Part shown: one piece after another, positions 18,096 through 35,017 of the stretch
Numbering within the stretch: the first letter of the stretch is position 1
How the letters are laid out: each line of letters begins with the position of its first letter
Program-made: the position numbers and the translations under genes
Assembly (NCBI GenBank): GCA_020722095.1
Contig: DYLM01000001.1
Span: forward strand, 1 to 48,925
DNA length: 48,925 bases
Reading direction: 5' to 3'
DNA from: Chloroherpeton thalassium
Lineage (GTDB): Bacteria > Bacteroidota > Ignavibacteria > Kapaibacteriales > UBA2268
Notes under the pieces: model-generated
What the model was told of the DNA's origin: nothing
The model's database searches: none
Seen by the model: only the letters and a program-made list of their open reading frames with translations

Positions 18096-18740
18096 CTAAA
18101 TCAAAGTAAAATAGTCGTGGTGCGTGTCGGAGTTTATTTGTAACACTCCAGCACGCACCAATCTTATTAATAGCTGTTCTGCTCTTCTTTTAGATATATT
18201 CACAAGCCCTGCAAATTCTTTTACTGTTGCTCTATTGTACTTTTCCAAATATTGAAATAGTCTCTTCTCTTTGTCTCCAATTGAAAGTCGTAGAGGTTTA
18301 TCGCTTGCTTGAGATTTTAATAGTCTGCTCATCTCCGAACTTGCTGGTACTGAACTCTCGCCTACTCTAATAAAAACTTGATACACTACTTTATCGTCCT
18401 CGATATGAGACATAGCCTTGTAGGGTTTGTGAGTGCCCTCTTTGATTATTACGGCAAGTAAATCTTTTCCTTGAACATCAAAAAGTTGCACTTCTGCTTT
18501 TAGTTCGGGTATAATATAAAATCCACAGGCTTTTTCAACAATATCCAATTCACTCTTTTCACTTTTGAGCCCTTTAATAGTGCCATCATCATCAATACCA
18601 ATGATAATTACACCGCCTTTGGTATTGGCAAATGCACAAATTTCTTTTGCAAGTTTTTCGGGATTATTGATTTTCCGCTTGTATTCCAAAGTTGAGCTTT
18701 CTCCAGCGGTAAGGAGTTGTTGGAATTCGCTGAATTTCAT
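18096..18740 (-). CDS. AlbA_2/Schlafen-type putative DNA-binding (ATP-binding) domain protein with C-terminal HTH
   Basis: 214 aa; GESSTLEYKRKINNPEKLAKEICAFANTKGGVIIIGIDDDGTIKGL; C-terminal HTH-like ATVKEFAGLVNISKRRAEQLLIRLVRAGVL. Confidence 0.85.
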   Translation of the reverse strand: MKFSEFQQLLTAGESSTLEYKRKINNPEKLAKEICAFANTKGGVIIIGIDDDGTIKGLKSEKSELDIVEKACGFYIIPELKAEVQLFDVQGKDLLAVIIKEGTHKPYKAMSHIEDDKVVYQVFIRVGESSVPASSEMSRLLKSQASDKPLRLSIGDKEKRLFQYLEKYNRATVKEFAGLVNISKRRAEQLLIRLVRAGVLQINSDTHHDYFTLI

Positions 18741-18780: not shown

Positions 18781-19533
18781 TTATTTGGAAATGATTTTGA
18801 TTTTACTTACACTATCCACAAGACTACGGTTTGCTTTGGTTTCTAAAGCAAAATCAACATTTAAAATCTTTTCTTCTGGAATATCTGAATAATAAATACA
18901 TTTAATTATCTTATTTGAATTGCGGTTAACAGTTATCGGCAAATCAGTTTTTAGCAATATATTTGAACCAATATCTAATCTTATTTCATTGATAATAACT
19001 GAATGCTCGCTTATATTCGTAAAATTAACTGAAAATTCATTTTCTTTTGAAACTTTGAACTCTTGTTCAACTTCAAAATCATCTGCAAAAATATAAGGGA
19101 CTTTTGCCTCGACCATACAAAAAGTATATTCAAGATTTGCAAAAACTAATGTGTCGATATACACTCCTGGTGTTTTTGCTTTAAACTCTATCTCAATTGG
19201 AAATTCCCATCCATTTTCGCCAACTGCAGATAACAAAATCGGTATTGTTTTATTTAATATTCTGAAATTATTATCTCCAAAATATAAAAAATAATTTGAA
19301 ATCAAATAGTTGTGTGATAGCTTGTTTTGAAGTATTACTCTTTTTATTACAGATGAATCGGGATGTACAAAATCGTAATTAATATAATTTGTGCTTAACT
19401 TAACATACGGATTTTCGAAAGAATTCTCTGTAAATTCAATTGTTCTATTTGCTGGCACATCTAATGGAGATGAACAATTACTTGAAATAATCACTATCAT
19501 TAAAAAGAATAATATATTTTGGATTTTCTTCAT
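18781..19533 (-). CDS. Putative lipoprotein, ASH/Ig-like repeat character
   Basis: 250 aa; hydrophobic leader then SSNCSS lipobox-like; beta-rich repeats such as NFTNISEHSVIINEIRLD. Confidence 0.5.
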   Translation of the reverse strand: MKKIQNILFFLMIVIISSNCSSPLDVPANRTIEFTENSFENPYVKLSTNYINYDFVHPDSSVIKRVILQNKLSHNYLISNYFLYFGDNNFRILNKTIPILLSAVGENGWEFPIEIEFKAKTPGVYIDTLVFANLEYTFCMVEAKVPYIFADDFEVEQEFKVSKENEFSVNFTNISEHSVIINEIRLDIGSNILLKTDLPITVNRNSNKIIKCIYYSDIPEEKILNVDFALETKANRSLVDSVSKIKIISK

Positions 19534-19539
19534 ATATTT

Positions 19540-20850
19540 TTAAAAATTAATTCTCGATCCATAAAAAAAGCCATATTTTGGGGTATTATATGATTTATTT
19601 TGGAATTGATACATTAGTATTGAACCTTCCAATCCAGCTGTAATTAAAAGTTTATCATTCAAATGATACGCTATTCCCGCTGACGATTTGAACAATGGTC
19701 CAATTTTTGTTGCCGAACCAAGTATTTTGATATATGGATTAATTAAAAGATTATCTGCTGGTAAATCAAATGTGTATTGATAGGCTAAACCATACCACTG
19801 TGCAGTATAAACTTGATTGATATTAGCAGAAATTCCATTCACATATCCACTGAATTTCTGCGGATAATTTTCTTGACCATATTCTATTGAGAAAGAATTA
19901 TTTTTATCAATATTATATGCTAAAGCAAGCGAATAGTTATTTAGTAAAGGATTAGTTAATGGTTCTAAATCAGTTTTAATATTAGAATAATTTGCTGATT
20001 TTATTATAGATAATGACATTTTATCTAAAAAAGAAAAATCAAAATAATTAACGTCACTTTTTTTGCTGTAATCATAGAATAAATTAAGCATAAACAAATC
20101 TTTTACAAAATTTGTAAATGGGATCTCTCTGAATTCAAAAGCAACTTGTTTAATTTGTTGTTGATTTTGAACAAGTTCACTTGTATTATTAAGAGTTAAA
20201 TTTTGATAATCATTATTATCAATAAAATTATCCACAACTTGGCTGTTGGCTGTTTCTGTAAGATTTTTAGGAGATTTTAATTTAGAAATAATAAGTGGTT
20301 TGTTTTGCTTAAGATTATTATCTTTCTTTGTTGATACTTCATTTTTTCCTGCAATGAGGTTTGAATTGAATTTGTTTTGTGCAGGATTTTGTTTAATAAA
20401 ATCATCATTTGCAGTATTTTTTTCTTCAGTATTGATATTTTTAGTTAATGTTTGCTTTTCAATTTTATTTCCATTGGTTTCATTCTCTTTTGCATTTTGA
20501 TTAAAGAAATAACCGAAAATGAAAAGTGCAACCCCAAATACAGCTGCTCCAAAAGCTGGATTAAATATAATTTTCTTAATTTCCGAGAAAAAAGTAGCAA
20601 TTAAACCAATAATTGCAGCTGATCTCTGCAAATTGAGTTTGCCCAAAAGCACAAATCTGGAATCTTTTGGTGGTGGCAAAAGTTCCTGCTGAAATAAACT
20701 TCTTAAATTTATTTGTTCTTTCAATTCTTCTTGCAAACTCGGATTATTCGAAATTTCCTTGAATAATTCGCCTGTTTCCAAAGAATCTAATTCTCCATCT
20801 AAATATTCACTTATTTTCTGAGAATAATATTCTTCATTTTTCAATTCCAT
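19540..20850 (-). CDS. Anti-sigma-factor-like protein with single TM helix and C-terminal outer-membrane beta-barrel-like domain
   Basis: N-terminal ISEYLDGELDSLETGELFKEISNNPSLQEEL (anti-sigma-like), TM FGAAVFGVALFIFGYFF, N/Q-rich linker, alternating hydrophobic strands ending ..YGFFYGSRINF; longer ORF starts at 20877. Confidence 0.65.
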   Translation of the reverse strand: MELKNEEYYSQKISEYLDGELDSLETGELFKEISNNPSLQEELKEQINLRSLFQQELLPPPKDSRFVLLGKLNLQRSAAIIGLIATFFSEIKKIIFNPAFGAAVFGVALFIFGYFFNQNAKENETNGNKIEKQTLTKNINTEEKNTANDDFIKQNPAQNKFNSNLIAGKNEVSTKKDNNLKQNKPLIISKLKSPKNLTETANSQVVDNFIDNNDYQNLTLNNTSELVQNQQQIKQVAFEFREIPFTNFVKDLFMLNLFYDYSKKSDVNYFDFSFLDKMSLSIIKSANYSNIKTDLEPLTNPLLNNYSLALAYNIDKNNSFSIEYGQENYPQKFSGYVNGISANINQVYTAQWYGLAYQYTFDLPADNLLINPYIKILGSATKIGPLFKSSAGIAYHLNDKLLITAGLEGSILMYQFQNKSYNTPKYGFFYGSRINF

Positions 20851-21430
20851 AATTTTCCTTTTTGCTTTTTTCGTCAATTTTGTTTAATTTTTCAAAAACT
20901 TCACGTAGCATATTTTTGGCTCTATGAATCAGTACTCCAACGTTAGTCCGAGACTGATTAGTCATAAGTGCTATGTCATCGTAGGAATAATCCAAATATT
21001 CCCGTAAAATCAACATTTCTCTGTAAATGTCTGGTAATTGTTCTATTGCCAAATCTAATACTTCTTTTTGTTGTTTTTTTTCATAATCATTGTCGTAAGT
21101 TGATAATCTTGTTTTATTGATATCTACTCTTTTAACTTTATTTGTTCGAACCTGATTAATACACAAATTTCTTGCAATTTTTGCTAAATATGCACCAATT
21201 TTTTCTATACCTTCATTAGTCGAGGTATTTATTTCGTAAAATTTTACGAATGTTTCCTGAAAAATATCCTTTGCTGTTTCCTTGTCCTTCAAAAATCTAT
21301 AACAAAGCGTATAAATTTTTGACGAATATCTACTATAGATTTCGTCAAAAGCTCTTTTAGCAATATCCTTTTTTTCTGACTTGATAAGGAAGCTAAGTTC
21401 TATCTCCGAATATTTTGAAAAATCACTCAC
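20834..21430 (-). CDS. ECF-type RNA polymerase sigma factor
   Basis: Region 2 FDEIYSRYSSKIYTLCYRFLKDKETAKDIFQETFVKFYE; region 4 EQLPDIYREMLILREYLDYSYDDIALMTNQSRTNVGVLIHRAKNMLRE. ORF opens at 21559 but GTG at 21430 gives a normal ECF N terminus. Confidence 0.9.
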   Translation of the reverse strand: MSDFSKYSEIELSFLIKSEKKDIAKRAFDEIYSRYSSKIYTLCYRFLKDKETAKDIFQETFVKFYEINTSTNEGIEKIGAYLAKIARNLCINQVRTNKVKRVDINKTRLSTYDNDYEKKQQKEVLDLAIEQLPDIYREMLILREYLDYSYDDIALMTNQSRTNVGVLIHRAKNMLREVFEKLNKIDEKSKKENYGIEK

Positions 21431-21585
21431 ATATATATAACACAAAAAAGAACATTTTATTACAAAAAGTGGAATATTTTTTTTATTTTTCAGCAATTTT
21501 ATTAAAACAAACTCATTTTTTCTATTTTTGAGGAAATTTTCGTATATTTCTTTCAACATTTTTTTGTGAAATTGCTTACAATATT

Positions 21586-23874: not shown

Positions 23875-24657
23875 ATGAAAAACTACGTTAATCTCATTGT
23901 GATAACATTATCACTCGTAGTTGGTTACACCATTTATTACGTTATCTTAGGTAATCCCGATAACTTTCTTGACCCATTGTTGAAACACGAGCCAAAACCA
24001 GGCAATATTTTAGGAACAATCTATACTGGTGGTCCGCTTGTTGGTTTATTAATGTCGTTAATCGTTATTTCCATCACTTACGTATTTGAAAGATTGTTCT
24101 CAATCAAAAAAGCACAAGGTAAAGGCAATCCTGCAACTTTCATTTCTGGCGTTGTAAAAGACTTAGAAAAAGGCGAATTAGACTCAGCATTGGCTAAATG
24201 CGATAAGCAAAGAGGAAGCGTTGCTAATGTATTGCGTGCAGCAATTCAAAGATTCAAAGATATTGAAAGTGATCCTGCTTATGTTGGCGACAGAAAATTA
24301 GCAGAAATTCAACGTTCTATCGACGAATCAATGAACTTAGAAACTCCACTTTTAGAGAAGAATTTAGTAATGTTATCAACTGTAGCATCAATTGCAACTA
24401 TGGTTGGTTTGTTAGGAACAACATTAGGTATGATTAGAGCATTCCAAGCATTAGCAGTAAGCGGTACAGTATCAGCAATACAATTATCTATTGGTATTTC
24501 CGAAGCATTATACAATACTGCTGGTGGTCTTATTGGCGCTATCATTTCAATTGTTGCTTTCAACTTCTTTACAACAAAAGTTGATAACTTTGTTTATATG
24601 ATTGACGAGGCTATACTAAACATAATGGAAATATTCACTATAAGAATTAAGAAGTAA
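23875..24657 (+). CDS. exbB: MotA/TolQ/ExbB proton channel family protein
   Basis: 260 aa; LSTVASIATMVGLLGTTLGMIRAFQALAVSG..ISEALYNTAGGLIGAIISIVAFNFF. Confidence 0.92.
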   Translation: MKNYVNLIVITLSLVVGYTIYYVILGNPDNFLDPLLKHEPKPGNILGTIYTGGPLVGLLMSLIVISITYVFERLFSIKKAQGKGNPATFISGVVKDLEKGELDSALAKCDKQRGSVANVLRAAIQRFKDIESDPAYVGDRKLAEIQRSIDESMNLETPLLEKNLVMLSTVASIATMVGLLGTTLGMIRAFQALAVSGTVSAIQLSIGISEALYNTAGGLIGAIISIVAFNFFTTKVDNFVYMIDEAILNIMEIFTIRIKK

Positions 24658-24681
24658 TTCCATTAATTTTAGGAGTCTACT

Positions 24682-25194
24682 ATGCCAAAAGTAAAAAAGA
24701 AGAGAGTAGGCTTTGTAATAGATATGACACCGTTGGTGGATATCACTTTTCTGTTGCTAACATTTTTTATGTTCACAGCAAAATTCAAAAGTGAGGCTGA
24801 AAGCCAACAGAAATTTACAATACAAAGACCAAAAGTATCGCCTGATACTACAACTATACCGCAAAATAATTTAGCAGTTATTAAAATTGCAATTGATTCA
24901 GTTACTCTTGATACTAATTATTATTATGAATTGAGCAATGAAACAGATAGAGCGAAGGTTTGGGGTAGTATTTCGGCATTAACAGAAGAACAAAGAGCAG
25001 AACCTCAATTAAAAGTTACTAAGGAACTTTTAGAGGAATTAGTAAGAGGAACAAGACTTGTTCAACCTACTACTAAATTTGCTATTGATGCAGATAGACG
25101 TTTAAGATTCCAATGGATACAAGATGCAATGGATATCTTAAGAAGGAAACAAGCAACTAAATTCACTTTCGTTACTGAAAAGAAAGGGGCTTAG
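24682..25194 (+). CDS. exbD: ExbD/TolR family biopolymer transport protein
   Basis: 170 aa; VGFVIDMTPLVDITFLLLTFFMFTAKF. Confidence 0.92.
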   Translation: MPKVKKKRVGFVIDMTPLVDITFLLLTFFMFTAKFKSEAESQQKFTIQRPKVSPDTTTIPQNNLAVIKIAIDSVTLDTNYYYELSNETDRAKVWGSISALTEEQRAEPQLKVTKELLEELVRGTRLVQPTTKFAIDADRRLRFQWIQDAMDILRRKQATKFTFVTEKKGA

Positions 25195-25240
25195 TAACTT
25201 TTTAATCAATTAATAAGTATATTAAGAAAAGGAGATAATT

Positions 25241-25819
25241 ATGTCTGGAGGAGGCGAAGCGTTAGGTGGCGGAGGCAAAGCCAAACGTGGTAGTAGTAAA
25301 AGAAAGACCAAGAAAAGAGTTGGTTTTAGAATAGATATGACTCCATTAGTGGACATCACCTTTTTGTTGTTAACTTTCTTTATGTTTACAACAACAATGG
25401 CTGCTCCACAAATTATGGAAATGTCTGTTCCACCAGAAACTGAAGAAGTGGAAGTTGCTGAATCACAATTATTACAATTTTATGTGCGAGATGATGGTGC
25501 CGTTTTCTATGCAATAGGTAAAGACGAACCCGAAAGAATTGATCCTAAAAAATTAACTGAAGTAAGTGAAATTTCCGCAAGAGAAAATCTTAAGGAAGAA
25601 CATTTAAATAAACTTATTGTTGCTTTATATGCATCGGGAGATGCTCCTTATGGTTTAGTAGTAGCAGTTTTGGATCAATTAAATATAGCTGAAGGTATCA
25701 TCGTAGATAAAATGAAAAAAGATATTGATCCAGAAACAGGCAAACCAGTAGAACGACAAAGAAGATTTACTATAGCACCGTTATTACCTGAAGATGTTGA
25801 AAGATTAAAGGGATTATAA
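25241..25819 (+). CDS. exbD: Second ExbD/TolR family biopolymer transport protein
   Basis: 192 aa; Gly/basic N-terminus then VGFRIDMTPLVDITFLLLTFFMFTTTM. Confidence 0.92.
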   Translation: MSGGGEALGGGGKAKRGSSKRKTKKRVGFRIDMTPLVDITFLLLTFFMFTTTMAAPQIMEMSVPPETEEVEVAESQLLQFYVRDDGAVFYAIGKDEPERIDPKKLTEVSEISARENLKEEHLNKLIVALYASGDAPYGLVVAVLDQLNIAEGIIVDKMKKDIDPETGKPVERQRRFTIAPLLPEDVERLKGL

Positions 25820-25821
25820 AA

Positions 25822-26598
25822 ATGACAGAATTAGTGCAAAATATTATAGATCTTCCTCGCTATGGAGCCCGAGAACTTAAAGGCTTTATTAATAAATTTA
25901 CTTATCGTGGATTTATCATTACTGCTGCTATTTTCTTAGGATTATTTTTTCTTTATTTTGGTTATACAAAGTATGAAAATGCTAAGCCAAAATTAAAGAA
26001 ATTACCACCAATAGCAAAGATAGATATTGTGGATTTACCTCCACAAGACGAATCTTTAGAAGCACCACCACCTGTTGAGCAAGTTATCAATAATGGTCCT
26101 GCTGCTCGTGCTGGTATTCCTGTACCGGTGCCTGATGCACAAATTACACCTGATATGCAAGAATTTGCTACAATCGATATTATGAACAGAGCATCTGCTG
26201 AAGGTGGAACTGGATTAGATTTAGGTGGATTTGCTTCAAACATTGATTTTGAAGGCACAGGCAATGTAGATGTAAAAGTTAAGGAAAAAGAACCCGAACC
26301 CGATGAATTTATTCCAGTGGAAAAGGAACCTGGTGTGGATTACGCTCGTCTTCAACAATTAGTAGTTTATCCAGATTTGGCTAAACGTGCTGGCATTGAA
26401 GGTAGAGTAACTATTCGTGTTCTAATCGGCAAAGATGGTACAGTTCGCAAAATGTTTATTGAAGATTCTGACAACAGTTTGTTAAATGAAGCTGCAGAAA
26501 ATGCAATAAGACAATATGGCAGGTTCACACCTGCTATTCAAAACCAAGAACCAATAACTTGTTGGATATCAATTCCAATTCAATTTAGGTTACGTTAG
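25822..26598 (+). CDS. tonB: TonB family energy transducer
   Basis: 258 aa; N-terminal TM, Pro-rich linker, C-terminal VVYPDLAKRAGIEGRVTIRVLIGKDGTVRKMFIEDSDNSLLNEAAENAIRQYGRFTPA. Confidence 0.93.
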   Translation: MTELVQNIIDLPRYGARELKGFINKFTYRGFIITAAIFLGLFFLYFGYTKYENAKPKLKKLPPIAKIDIVDLPPQDESLEAPPPVEQVINNGPAARAGIPVPVPDAQITPDMQEFATIDIMNRASAEGGTGLDLGGFASNIDFEGTGNVDVKVKEKEPEPDEFIPVEKEPGVDYARLQQLVVYPDLAKRAGIEGRVTIRVLIGKDGTVRKMFIEDSDNSLLNEAAENAIRQYGRFTPAIQNQEPITCWISIPIQFRLR

Positions 26599-32263: not shown

Positions 32264-35017
32264 TTATAATTTTATTCCAAAACTTAAATATGTTTTTGCT
32301 TCACCTTTGTATAATTCTAATGATTCATCAACAGAAAAAATGTCTGCTATGCCAATACTTAATGGTCCTAATGGTGTATTTAAAGAATATGAAATTCCAA
32401 GACTATGCAAAAAACTTACAAATTGTATTTTGTCTGTTCTTTGCCAAACTCTTCCTGTATTATAATGAATGCTAACGTACATATCAAGTATTGACTTTAT
32501 TGGAATTCTATACCGATAATTAACAAATAAGTTTATTATTTGCCTACCTAAATACTGATTTTCGAGCAAACCCCAGAAATTTCCCTCTCCGCCCAGCGAG
32601 AACATTTCGGTTATTGGCATTGTCTCGTCTCCTGCTCCAATAATTGACCCAAAATTTATAGTGTTCCGCGAATCGAAGCTATAAAATGAAGAGAAAGAAA
32701 AGAATAATTTCGAATATGAAATAAAGTCGCTAAATGGAGCAATGTTTGTTTCTAAATATGACTCTAATTGCATTCCATTTGTTGGATAGAAAGTGAAATC
32801 GCGGGAATCATACTGAAAATTTATCTTAAATGTTGCTAAATTTTGAAACTTTGATGGAGTCTCTCCAATATTAAATGATCTTTGTCTTTCGTATTTTAAA
32901 TCAAATGTAAATTTCCCTTTTTTCTCGATTTGCGAACCAAAAGATAAATTCAATCCCATTTTTTCAATTAATAACTCTGATTTTAATTGATATAATAATT
33001 CTTTATCACTGTAATCTTTGGTATTATCGTAAAGTTTAATTCTATTACGATAATAATAAGCCATCGACCTGCTTGTTAAAGTAGTAGTTAGTATTTTTGG
33101 GTTAAGTCCAGAGATTGAAAAATATTGATTTAATTCTCCACCAAAGAATGAAAATGCAACTTGCGAACCCAAATTTAAAAAGTTCTGATGAATAAAATCA
33201 ACACTTGCTTGCAAATATCTTTCATTATCAGCACGAATGCCAAGCTGGAGAGTTTGATTACCTGATTCTGTTAATTGAACAATTACATTGATTTTCCCGC
33301 TTGCATTTTTAGTTGGATAAACATCAATAAAAGAAAAATAATTAGTAGAAAGCAAATTTGCTCTACTTTGTTGCAACATCTGAAATGACAAAATATCGCC
33401 CTGTTTGAATACCAATTCCCTTTTTATTAAGTAATCATCAACTGTTTTATTTCCTTTAATAATCACGGAATCAACAATGCCTTCATCAACAATCAATTCA
33501 AATATTTTATTTTCTCTGTCGCATATTATTTTCTTTATGTTTAAGAAAGAATAATTTTTTTCTTTTGCCTTTTCAATAAATGCAGTTTTTACTTTTTGCA
33601 TTAAATTATAGTCAAATTGTTCAGCAAAAAACTTTTGATTAATTTCAGATAAAATTTCTTCCAAATTAGGAGTGATTTGATGGTTAATCACAATTTTGGT
33701 TAATTGAGTTTGCTCATTAGCATTGATAATTATTTCACTTTGATTTGTTTCAACCCACAATTTGCAATAAGAGTTAGCATTTGAATTGAAATAATGATAA
33801 ATATCATCTAACACAATTAAATTCTTACTATTAAACAATTTTATAATATTTGCACTATCAATTGGCTTGATATTTTTAAATTTAATAGATGAATACTCAT
33901 TATTTATTGCTGGATTATCATTATTGAAATCATTGAACTTCTCATTTGTTAAGTTCTCAATTTGTAATTTGATATTGTTAGCCACATCTGTTGCAGTTAT
34001 CTCACCTTTATAAATCAATGAATCTGTATTTTTAAAATCAGTATTTGAATAATTTCCCAAGTCTGGAGTGATTAGAAAGTTCGCTTTATTTCGTTCAATT
34101 TCTGTAAACTTTTGCATTTCAATCGAAACAATTTGATCGGCAACATTCCAAGGTTTGTTGAGATCCTTTTGCTCAAAAAGTGGTGAAGTAACATCAACAG
34201 CAATAGTTATATCGGGATTGAATTCACTGTTAGCAATACTTACTGGAATATTTGACATTAGTCCGCCATCTACAAGCAGCATATTTTGATAAGGAACAGG
34301 CGAATGCCGTAGTGGAATGGTTGAACTCGCACGCACCGACATTGGCAAACTCCCATTTTTAAGAACCACCGTATTGCCCGAAACAATATCTGTTGCTACT
34401 GGTCGAAACGGAATTTGCAAATCATCATAATCTTCGAGCGATACACTTCGGGCATTATAAAACAAATCGCTCAATAGTTGATTGAATTTATTTGCAAACG
34501 ATAGGCCTTGAGGAAATACAACTTCGAAATTCTGAAAATTTAACTTTATCAAACTTCTATCCAGAAATGCCTTGTTATCATAGATGTATTCGCGCCTATC
34601 GGTGTTTTCGATAAGCGAAAATATCTCGGTCCAATCTTTGTCCATAAAGATTTTCTCGAGTTCGTCAGTTGTGTAGCCCGCAGAATAAAGACCACCGATA
34701 ATAGCACCAATACTTGTTCCAACAATATAATCAATTTTGATATTTGACTTTTCGAGTTGTTTTATTACTCCAATGTGAGCAATACCACGAGCACCACCGC
34801 CGCTAAGAACTAAGGCAACTTTTGGTTTGAAAAAATTCCTATTTGGGATTAAATTATACTTTTGTGTATTTACGGAATTGTAGTATTTTTCCCAGTCTTG
34901 TTCGGAAACAAAAGGAGCATCGGAATTAACTACTTCCAAAGATTTACTTAATAAATTTGCAGAAAAACTGGAAAGTAATATAAGTAGGTAAAGGATATTT
35001 TTTGGAACTTTTTTCAA
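32264..35017 (-). CDS. Patatin-like phospholipase fused to POTRA and Omp85/BamA-type barrel (PlpD-like)
   Basis: 917 aa; GGGARGIAHIGVIKQL, GTSIGAI, VDGGLMSNIP; POTRA-like FELIVDEGIVDSVIIKGNKTVDDYLIKRELVFKQGDI; C-terminal LSFGIKL barrel end. Confidence 0.9.
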   Translation of the reverse strand: MKKVPKNILYLLILLSSFSANLLSKSLEVVNSDAPFVSEQDWEKYYNSVNTQKYNLIPNRNFFKPKVALVLSGGGARGIAHIGVIKQLEKSNIKIDYIVGTSIGAIIGGLYSAGYTTDELEKIFMDKDWTEIFSLIENTDRREYIYDNKAFLDRSLIKLNFQNFEVVFPQGLSFANKFNQLLSDLFYNARSVSLEDYDDLQIPFRPVATDIVSGNTVVLKNGSLPMSVRASSTIPLRHSPVPYQNMLLVDGGLMSNIPVSIANSEFNPDITIAVDVTSPLFEQKDLNKPWNVADQIVSIEMQKFTEIERNKANFLITPDLGNYSNTDFKNTDSLIYKGEITATDVANNIKLQIENLTNEKFNDFNNDNPAINNEYSSIKFKNIKPIDSANIIKLFNSKNLIVLDDIYHYFNSNANSYCKLWVETNQSEIIINANEQTQLTKIVINHQITPNLEEILSEINQKFFAEQFDYNLMQKVKTAFIEKAKEKNYSFLNIKKIICDRENKIFELIVDEGIVDSVIIKGNKTVDDYLIKRELVFKQGDILSFQMLQQSRANLLSTNYFSFIDVYPTKNASGKINVIVQLTESGNQTLQLGIRADNERYLQASVDFIHQNFLNLGSQVAFSFFGGELNQYFSISGLNPKILTTTLTSRSMAYYYRNRIKLYDNTKDYSDKELLYQLKSELLIEKMGLNLSFGSQIEKKGKFTFDLKYERQRSFNIGETPSKFQNLATFKINFQYDSRDFTFYPTNGMQLESYLETNIAPFSDFISYSKLFFSFSSFYSFDSRNTINFGSIIGAGDETMPITEMFSLGGEGNFWGLLENQYLGRQIINLFVNYRYRIPIKSILDMYVSIHYNTGRVWQRTDKIQFVSFLHSLGISYSLNTPLGPLSIGIADIFSVDESLELYKGEAKTYLSFGIKL

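Follow-up and report, generated by a model that had tools for sequence, protein, structure and literature searches.

A putative class I anti-sigma factor predicted to span both membranes, with a lipoprotein partner gene, in Kapaibacteria

We analysed a window of 48,925 nucleotides from the genome of an uncultured Kapaibacterial bacterium (Chloroherpeton thalassium, assembly GCA_020722095.1, contig DYLM01000001.1). On its minus strand, positions 18781-21464 hold a promoter followed by co-directional genes for an ECF sigma factor, a membrane protein of 436 aa and a lipoprotein. The three ORFs lie where the original prediction had placed them, with two corrections. The sigma gene had been started at ATG 21559, but the homologue profile begins at GTG 21430 and a conserved promoter (21436-21464) stands just upstream of this codon, inside the longer ORF, so the GTG is most likely the start of a 198-aa product (20834-21430). 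The middle protein, earlier counted as 437 aa, has 436 residues (19540-20850 including the stop codon). As had been described, the sigma gene overlaps the next gene, by 17 nt, and 6 nt separate the latter from the lipoprotein gene (18781-19533). The sigma factor matches Sigma70_r2 (1e-12) and Sigma70_r4 (1.5e-13) in Pfam and the generic NCBIfam model sigma70-ECF (3.7e-24); its best scores for ECF subfamilies in NCBIfam fell below the cut-off, leaving a generic ECF assignment only. The genome, of 2.46 Mb, carries three such units, with three paralogous sigmas. Directly downstream on the same strand lies a gene for a SLFN_AlbA_2 protein (18096-18740), which also follows the unit in the two closest relatives. 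Elsewhere in the window there are an ExbB-ExbD-ExbD-TonB-like cluster on the plus strand (23875-26598), close to the unit, and a 917-aa patatin-POTRA-Omp85 protein resembling the patatin autotransporter PlpD (32264-35017).

The N-terminal domain of the membrane protein (residues 1-75; 20626-20850, minus strand) is best read as a class I anti-sigma domain, a reading drawn from profile, Pfam and Foldseek comparisons. When a profile of this domain was searched against all PDB sequences, E. coli RseA (1or7_C) came first at 8.7e-5, with Asp18 of the D-G-E-L motif aligned to RseA Asp11, and DdvA and RsiW were matched in register. In Pfam the window protein itself gave no significant match; RseA_N was found in 12 of 23 members (best 1.2e-7) and zf-HC2 in 18 of 23, each match being weak individually. 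Folded alone, the domain was predicted to form helices at residues 3-17, 23-35, 37-55 and 64-71, the class I layout of three helices and a fourth. Fifteen of the 16 Foldseek matches of this model in the PDB were anti-sigma domains (MucA, RseA, RsiW, RslA and DdvA), with E-values for the 75-aa domain that are weak one by one (0.05-2). Superposition on RsiW gave an rmsd of 2.1-2.3 A; on MucA and RseA it was about 15 A, with a good overlay for part of the domain only. The Asp of the DGEL motif is nearly invariant in the 59 distinct fused homologues (D in 53, E in 3), and the zinc motif is absent from the domain, as it is from RseA. Asp11 of RseA is a key sigma contact, and RseA with His in its place is inactive (PMC7406223). 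Thus the anti-sigma-like N terminus proposed from the sequence held up, and sigma binding and inhibition are predicted. Like the class I anti-sigmas RseA, MucA and RsiW, the protein would carry a four-helix sigma-binding domain with an Asp of the RseA Asp11 type, followed by one transmembrane helix; unlike in those proteins, the periplasmic part is replaced by a tether and a predicted outer-membrane barrel.

AlphaFold2, run on the full-length protein with an alignment of 26 sequences, gave high-confidence helices at 3-17, 23-35 and 37-54 and further predicted a long hydrophobic helix at 98-125, disorder at 126-268 (pLDDT <50) and eight strands between 278 and 435 with pLDDT mostly above 90. 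We accordingly divide the rest of the protein, on the minus strand, into a single transmembrane helix (about residues 94-125, hydropathy 2.2; 20476-20571), a disordered N/K/Q-rich tether predicted to lie in the periplasm (residues 126-277; 20020-20475) and a C-terminal beta-barrel (residues 278-436; 19543-20019) that ends in a putative aromatic beta-signal, ..INF. The best Foldseek matches of the C-terminal part in the PDB were outer-membrane barrels, NspA first (3.1e-6) and then FadL, OpcA, OmpA, OprF, Ail and OmpW. The TM-scores normalised as TMt were 0.57 for NspA, 0.53 for OprF and 0.61 for a de novo transmembrane barrel, being moderate (0.4-0.6) for real barrels; closure of the barrel and its insertion into the outer membrane are predictions from the model. 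Both ends of the protein are conserved in the alignment and the sequence of the tether is not. The tether measures 110-219 aa (median 140) in the 59 fused proteins and is never shorter. Their C-terminal residue is F, Y or L in 52, as expected for a barrel insertion signal, and R, K or E in the other 7. The combination foreseen for this protein, one membrane helix, a disordered linker and an eight-stranded barrel together with an anti-sigma fold, was predicted in full, and it was found fused in all 59 homologues. None of the outcomes named beforehand as refuting the proposal was seen.

The third gene encodes a lipoprotein whose lipobox (SSN-C) is followed by a conserved SPLDVPANR and, by homology, two ASH/Ig-like domains. 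The earlier assignment of ASH/Ig character stands for the orthologues, where it is clear (Cep192_D4 at 1e-10, HYDIN-Ig at 1e-5), but in the window copy itself it is too weak (E 0.11). An ORF of at least 150 aa follows the anti-sigma gene in 53 of the 56 fused cases in which the contig leaves room for one. A simple lipobox pattern occurs in 43 of these 53 genes, and most of the remainder look like lipoproteins by eye. They are of two main kinds, DUF4397 proteins and ASH/Ig-like proteins whose lipidated cysteine leads into a C-x-SP-x-D...R motif. The strong conservation of C-x-SPLDVxANR directly after the lipidated cysteine, seen at 19440-19475 of the window and in third genes of related units, is unusual, as lipoproteins normally have a variable tether here.

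Matches were seen in 49 of the 54 genomes that represent the taxonomic family, with as many as eight in one genome. Other families of the order have them too, and beyond the order one further family has both domains. A sigma gene is directly adjacent in all 59 fused cases and the third ORF is nearly always a lipoprotein gene. A chance fusion or a frameshift was rejected, as the 59 homologues are distinct, intact and adjoin a sigma gene in each case. In other classes, the same N-terminal domain occurs in short anti-sigmas that have no barrel and lie beside sigma genes; examples of 80-275 aa, mostly adjoining sigma genes, were seen in other groups of the phylum and are candidate ancestors of the fusion.

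Upstream of the sigma gene we recognised an ECF-type operon promoter on the minus strand, with a -35 element TGTAAT (21459-21464) and a -10 element TGTTATA (21436-21442), 8 nt lying between TGTT and the GTG start, and with an exact match in the genome. Of 57 regions upstream of the sigma genes in homologous units, 16 contain a GTAA-N18-GTTA dyad, compared with 0.25 expected, and the sigma-gene promoters share the consensus TGTAAC/T-TTTT-...-TGTTA, in the spacing form TGTAAC/T-N16-TGTTA. In 17 of the 20 loci with a recognisable site the start codon lies 8-15 nt after TGTT, which suggests that the sigma activates its own gene and that the sigma mRNAs are leaderless or nearly so. With at most one mismatch, the window version of the promoter matched 16 sites in the genome, and a reversed control 4. 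Genes downstream of the genomic sites include those for secreted or surface proteins (an IgGFc-binding protein, a C-type lectin bearing a T9SS sorting tail, a choice-of-anchor I protein and a carboxypeptidase-regulatory-like lipoprotein), a DUF3575 protein resembling a small barrel and, on contig C195, a paralogous unit. The number of independent sites is small, because four of the seven exact ones (contigs C116, C154, C164 and C184) belong to a single dispersed repeat; in two cases the repeat, with its exact promoter copy, lies upstream of a gene for a secreted protein. As a regulon, this set is thus only suggestive, being small, partly repeat and not attributable to a particular sigma among the three paralogues.

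The locus had been put forward as the best candidate in the window for an undescribed signalling architecture. This did not hold, since the layout was published for Phocaeicola and Bacteroides between 2022 and 2026 (PMC9308784, PMC13088901). In Phocaeicola vulgatus, the M0N98_03760/03761 pair includes an anti-sigma predicted to span the periplasm and to carry an outer-membrane barrel, and loss of M0N98_03760 turns on the sigma regulon, which is linked to envelope stress (Evans et al. 2022, PMC9308784). In B. thetaiotaomicron the Dma family shares all four parts and their order (Pardue et al., PMC13088901); Dma1/Dma2 with Das1/Das2 appear also in PNAS 2024 e2321910121, as cited in PMC13088901. 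For Dma1/2 as for M0N98_03760, the sigma regulon is switched on when the anti-sigma is lost and is induced by envelope stress (PMC9308784, PMC13088901). The Dma family is further marked by a cognate sigma of group ECF21 and by increased vesiculation on deletion of the anti-sigma. Dma1 and Dma2 resemble the protein described here in having an N-terminal anti-sigma region, one transmembrane helix, a long disordered tether, a C-terminal beta-barrel and an adjacent ECF sigma, in the case of Dma2 within a three-gene operon; M0N98_03760/03761 resembles it in the predicted spanning of the periplasm and the outer-membrane barrel. What is new here is that the unit is widespread in Kapaibacteria, together with a conserved lipoprotein partner gene and a shared sigma promoter.

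Whether the two groups have one origin was judged against a Bacteroidales set of Dma type found by gene context in five genomes, as a sigma gene beside one for a barrel protein (PF13568, about 420 aa); two of these adjoin NigD genes. The set was extended to 35 proteins, which we infer to be Dma, BT_1558 itself lying outside it. One of them, from Bacteroidales genome G440 (region C1:501873), is a 547-aa protein in which an ECF sigma domain is fused before the tether and barrel, fitting the description of Dma3. Neither the Kapaibacterial N-terminal domain nor the barrel gave an hmmsearch match in either direction against 34-35 of the Bacteroidales proteins, with all self-controls positive, and the HHalign probability was 0.9% for the N-terminal domain and 13% for the barrel, over 58 columns and out of register. 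OMP_b-brl_2 and OMP_b-brl were found in 7 of 7 Bacteroidales members tested, which had no detectable anti-sigma match in the PDB, and their N-terminal region is about 45 aa long; by contrast, Kapaibacterial proteins have a class I, RseA-like domain of 75-95 aa, a barrel outside the Pfam families and, encoded by the third gene, a lipoprotein of the ASH or DUF4397 kind. The same class I domain and barrel outside Pfam, and the lack of detectable homology to the Bacteroidales proteins compared here, also set the unit apart from M0N98_03760/03761. In Phocaeicola, moreover, orthologues of NigD, a putative lipoprotein, are upregulated on toxin treatment, whereas the ASH and DUF4397 lipoproteins here are encoded in the operon.

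Because no homology was detected by hmmsearch or HHalign, the Pfam barrel differs and the Bacteroidales members lack a PDB anti-sigma match, independent assembly of this layout, in which a class I anti-sigma was joined to a different barrel, seems about as likely as extreme divergence. The boldest reading, for which the chance comes close to even, is that the dual-membrane-spanning anti-sigma has two or more separate origins in Bacteroidota, one of them in Bacteroidales and another in Kapaibacteria, there from an ordinary class I anti-sigma and an eight-stranded barrel, and that in Kapaibacteria it would work with a dedicated C-x-SP-x-D-x-x-x-R lipoprotein as a three-part outer-membrane sensor. 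That the protein is instead a divergent orthologue of Bacteroides Dma, a member of one ancient family whose N-terminal domain and barrel have changed beyond recognition, is a serious though tentative alternative. The identical order of parts, the same sigma-first operon and the placing of both groups in Bacteroidota, to which NCBI taxonomy assigns Kapaibacterium, are what common descent would leave; both barrels are eight-stranded by eye, and the two barrel profiles score 26.8 against each other and at most 17.8 in 60 column shuffles. The profile searches, the HHalign probabilities and the differing barrel families and N-terminal lengths given above speak against it.

It is improbable that the protein is a conventional anti-sigma of the inner membrane, its C-terminal beta domain serving as a soluble periplasmic sensor or forming a barrel without ever entering the outer membrane. 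Outer-membrane insertion is predicted from the model, 7 of the 59 proteins end in R, K or E, and short barrel-less anti-sigmas with the same N-terminal domain are common in other classes, all of which such a protein would accommodate; it would not account for the high-confidence eight-strand model with outer-membrane barrels as its best structural matches, the terminal F/Y/L in 52 of 59, a tether of at least 110 aa in every case and the Bacteroides precedent. A FecR-type cell-surface signalling pair answering to a TonB receptor, which an ECF sigma with a membrane anti-sigma and the nearby ExbB/ExbD/TonB-like genes might bring to mind, was rejected as highly improbable, since Pfam detected no FecR/STN family match in the anti-sigma or its homologues, and the conserved third gene beside it encodes a lipoprotein and no TonB receptor. 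Control of an ECF sigma across two membranes is shared with FecIR, but here the outer-membrane part is built into the anti-sigma, whereas in FecIR it is a separate TonB receptor.

Returning to the anti-sigma predicted to span both membranes, computation supports the identity of the sigma, the anti-sigma fold, the transmembrane helix, the tether, the barrel fold, the conservation of the operon and the shared sigma promoter. Because the four parts of the protein and its lipoprotein partner are supported, a single polypeptide able to span both membranes, as the original prediction held, is still the best reading of these predicted parts, even though its claim to novelty failed; and it is quite probable that the three genes form an ECF sigma/dual-membrane-spanning anti-sigma/lipoprotein signalling unit. 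For the release of the sigma, the regulated-release system of RseA/RseB serves as the analogy. The class I domain would hold the sigma at the inner membrane, with one helix passing through that membrane, the disordered tether of about 150 residues crossing the periplasm and the eight-stranded barrel lying in the outer membrane. Most probably, while the barrel is folded there, perhaps docked by the operon lipoprotein, the tether would be protected and the sigma held. If the barrel fails to assemble, the outer membrane is damaged or a ligand acts at the surface, the tether may become exposed to a periplasmic protease, after which an RseP-type M50 protease could cut the helix and free the sigma to transcribe its own operon and genes for envelope or secreted proteins. 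M50 proteases are present in the window genome. The state of the barrel thus would control sigma release, probably by regulated proteolysis, and the lipoprotein is likely to act as a co-sensor. Sigma binding and outer-membrane insertion are predicted steps; the signal, the release step and the part of the lipoprotein are modelled on RseA/RseB and Dma.

Dma proteins have so far been described as a single Bacteroidota family. The equivalent of RseA Asp11, in a domain of known fold, offers a clearer handle on how the sigma is released, and the lipoprotein may be a missing component of such systems. If the reading is true, a second set that shows no detectable sequence relationship to the first, has a recognisable RseA-type domain, reaches eight copies in a genome and comes with a conserved lipoprotein would point to the direct tethering of an anti-sigma to an outer-membrane barrel as a general way of reading the state of the outer membrane.
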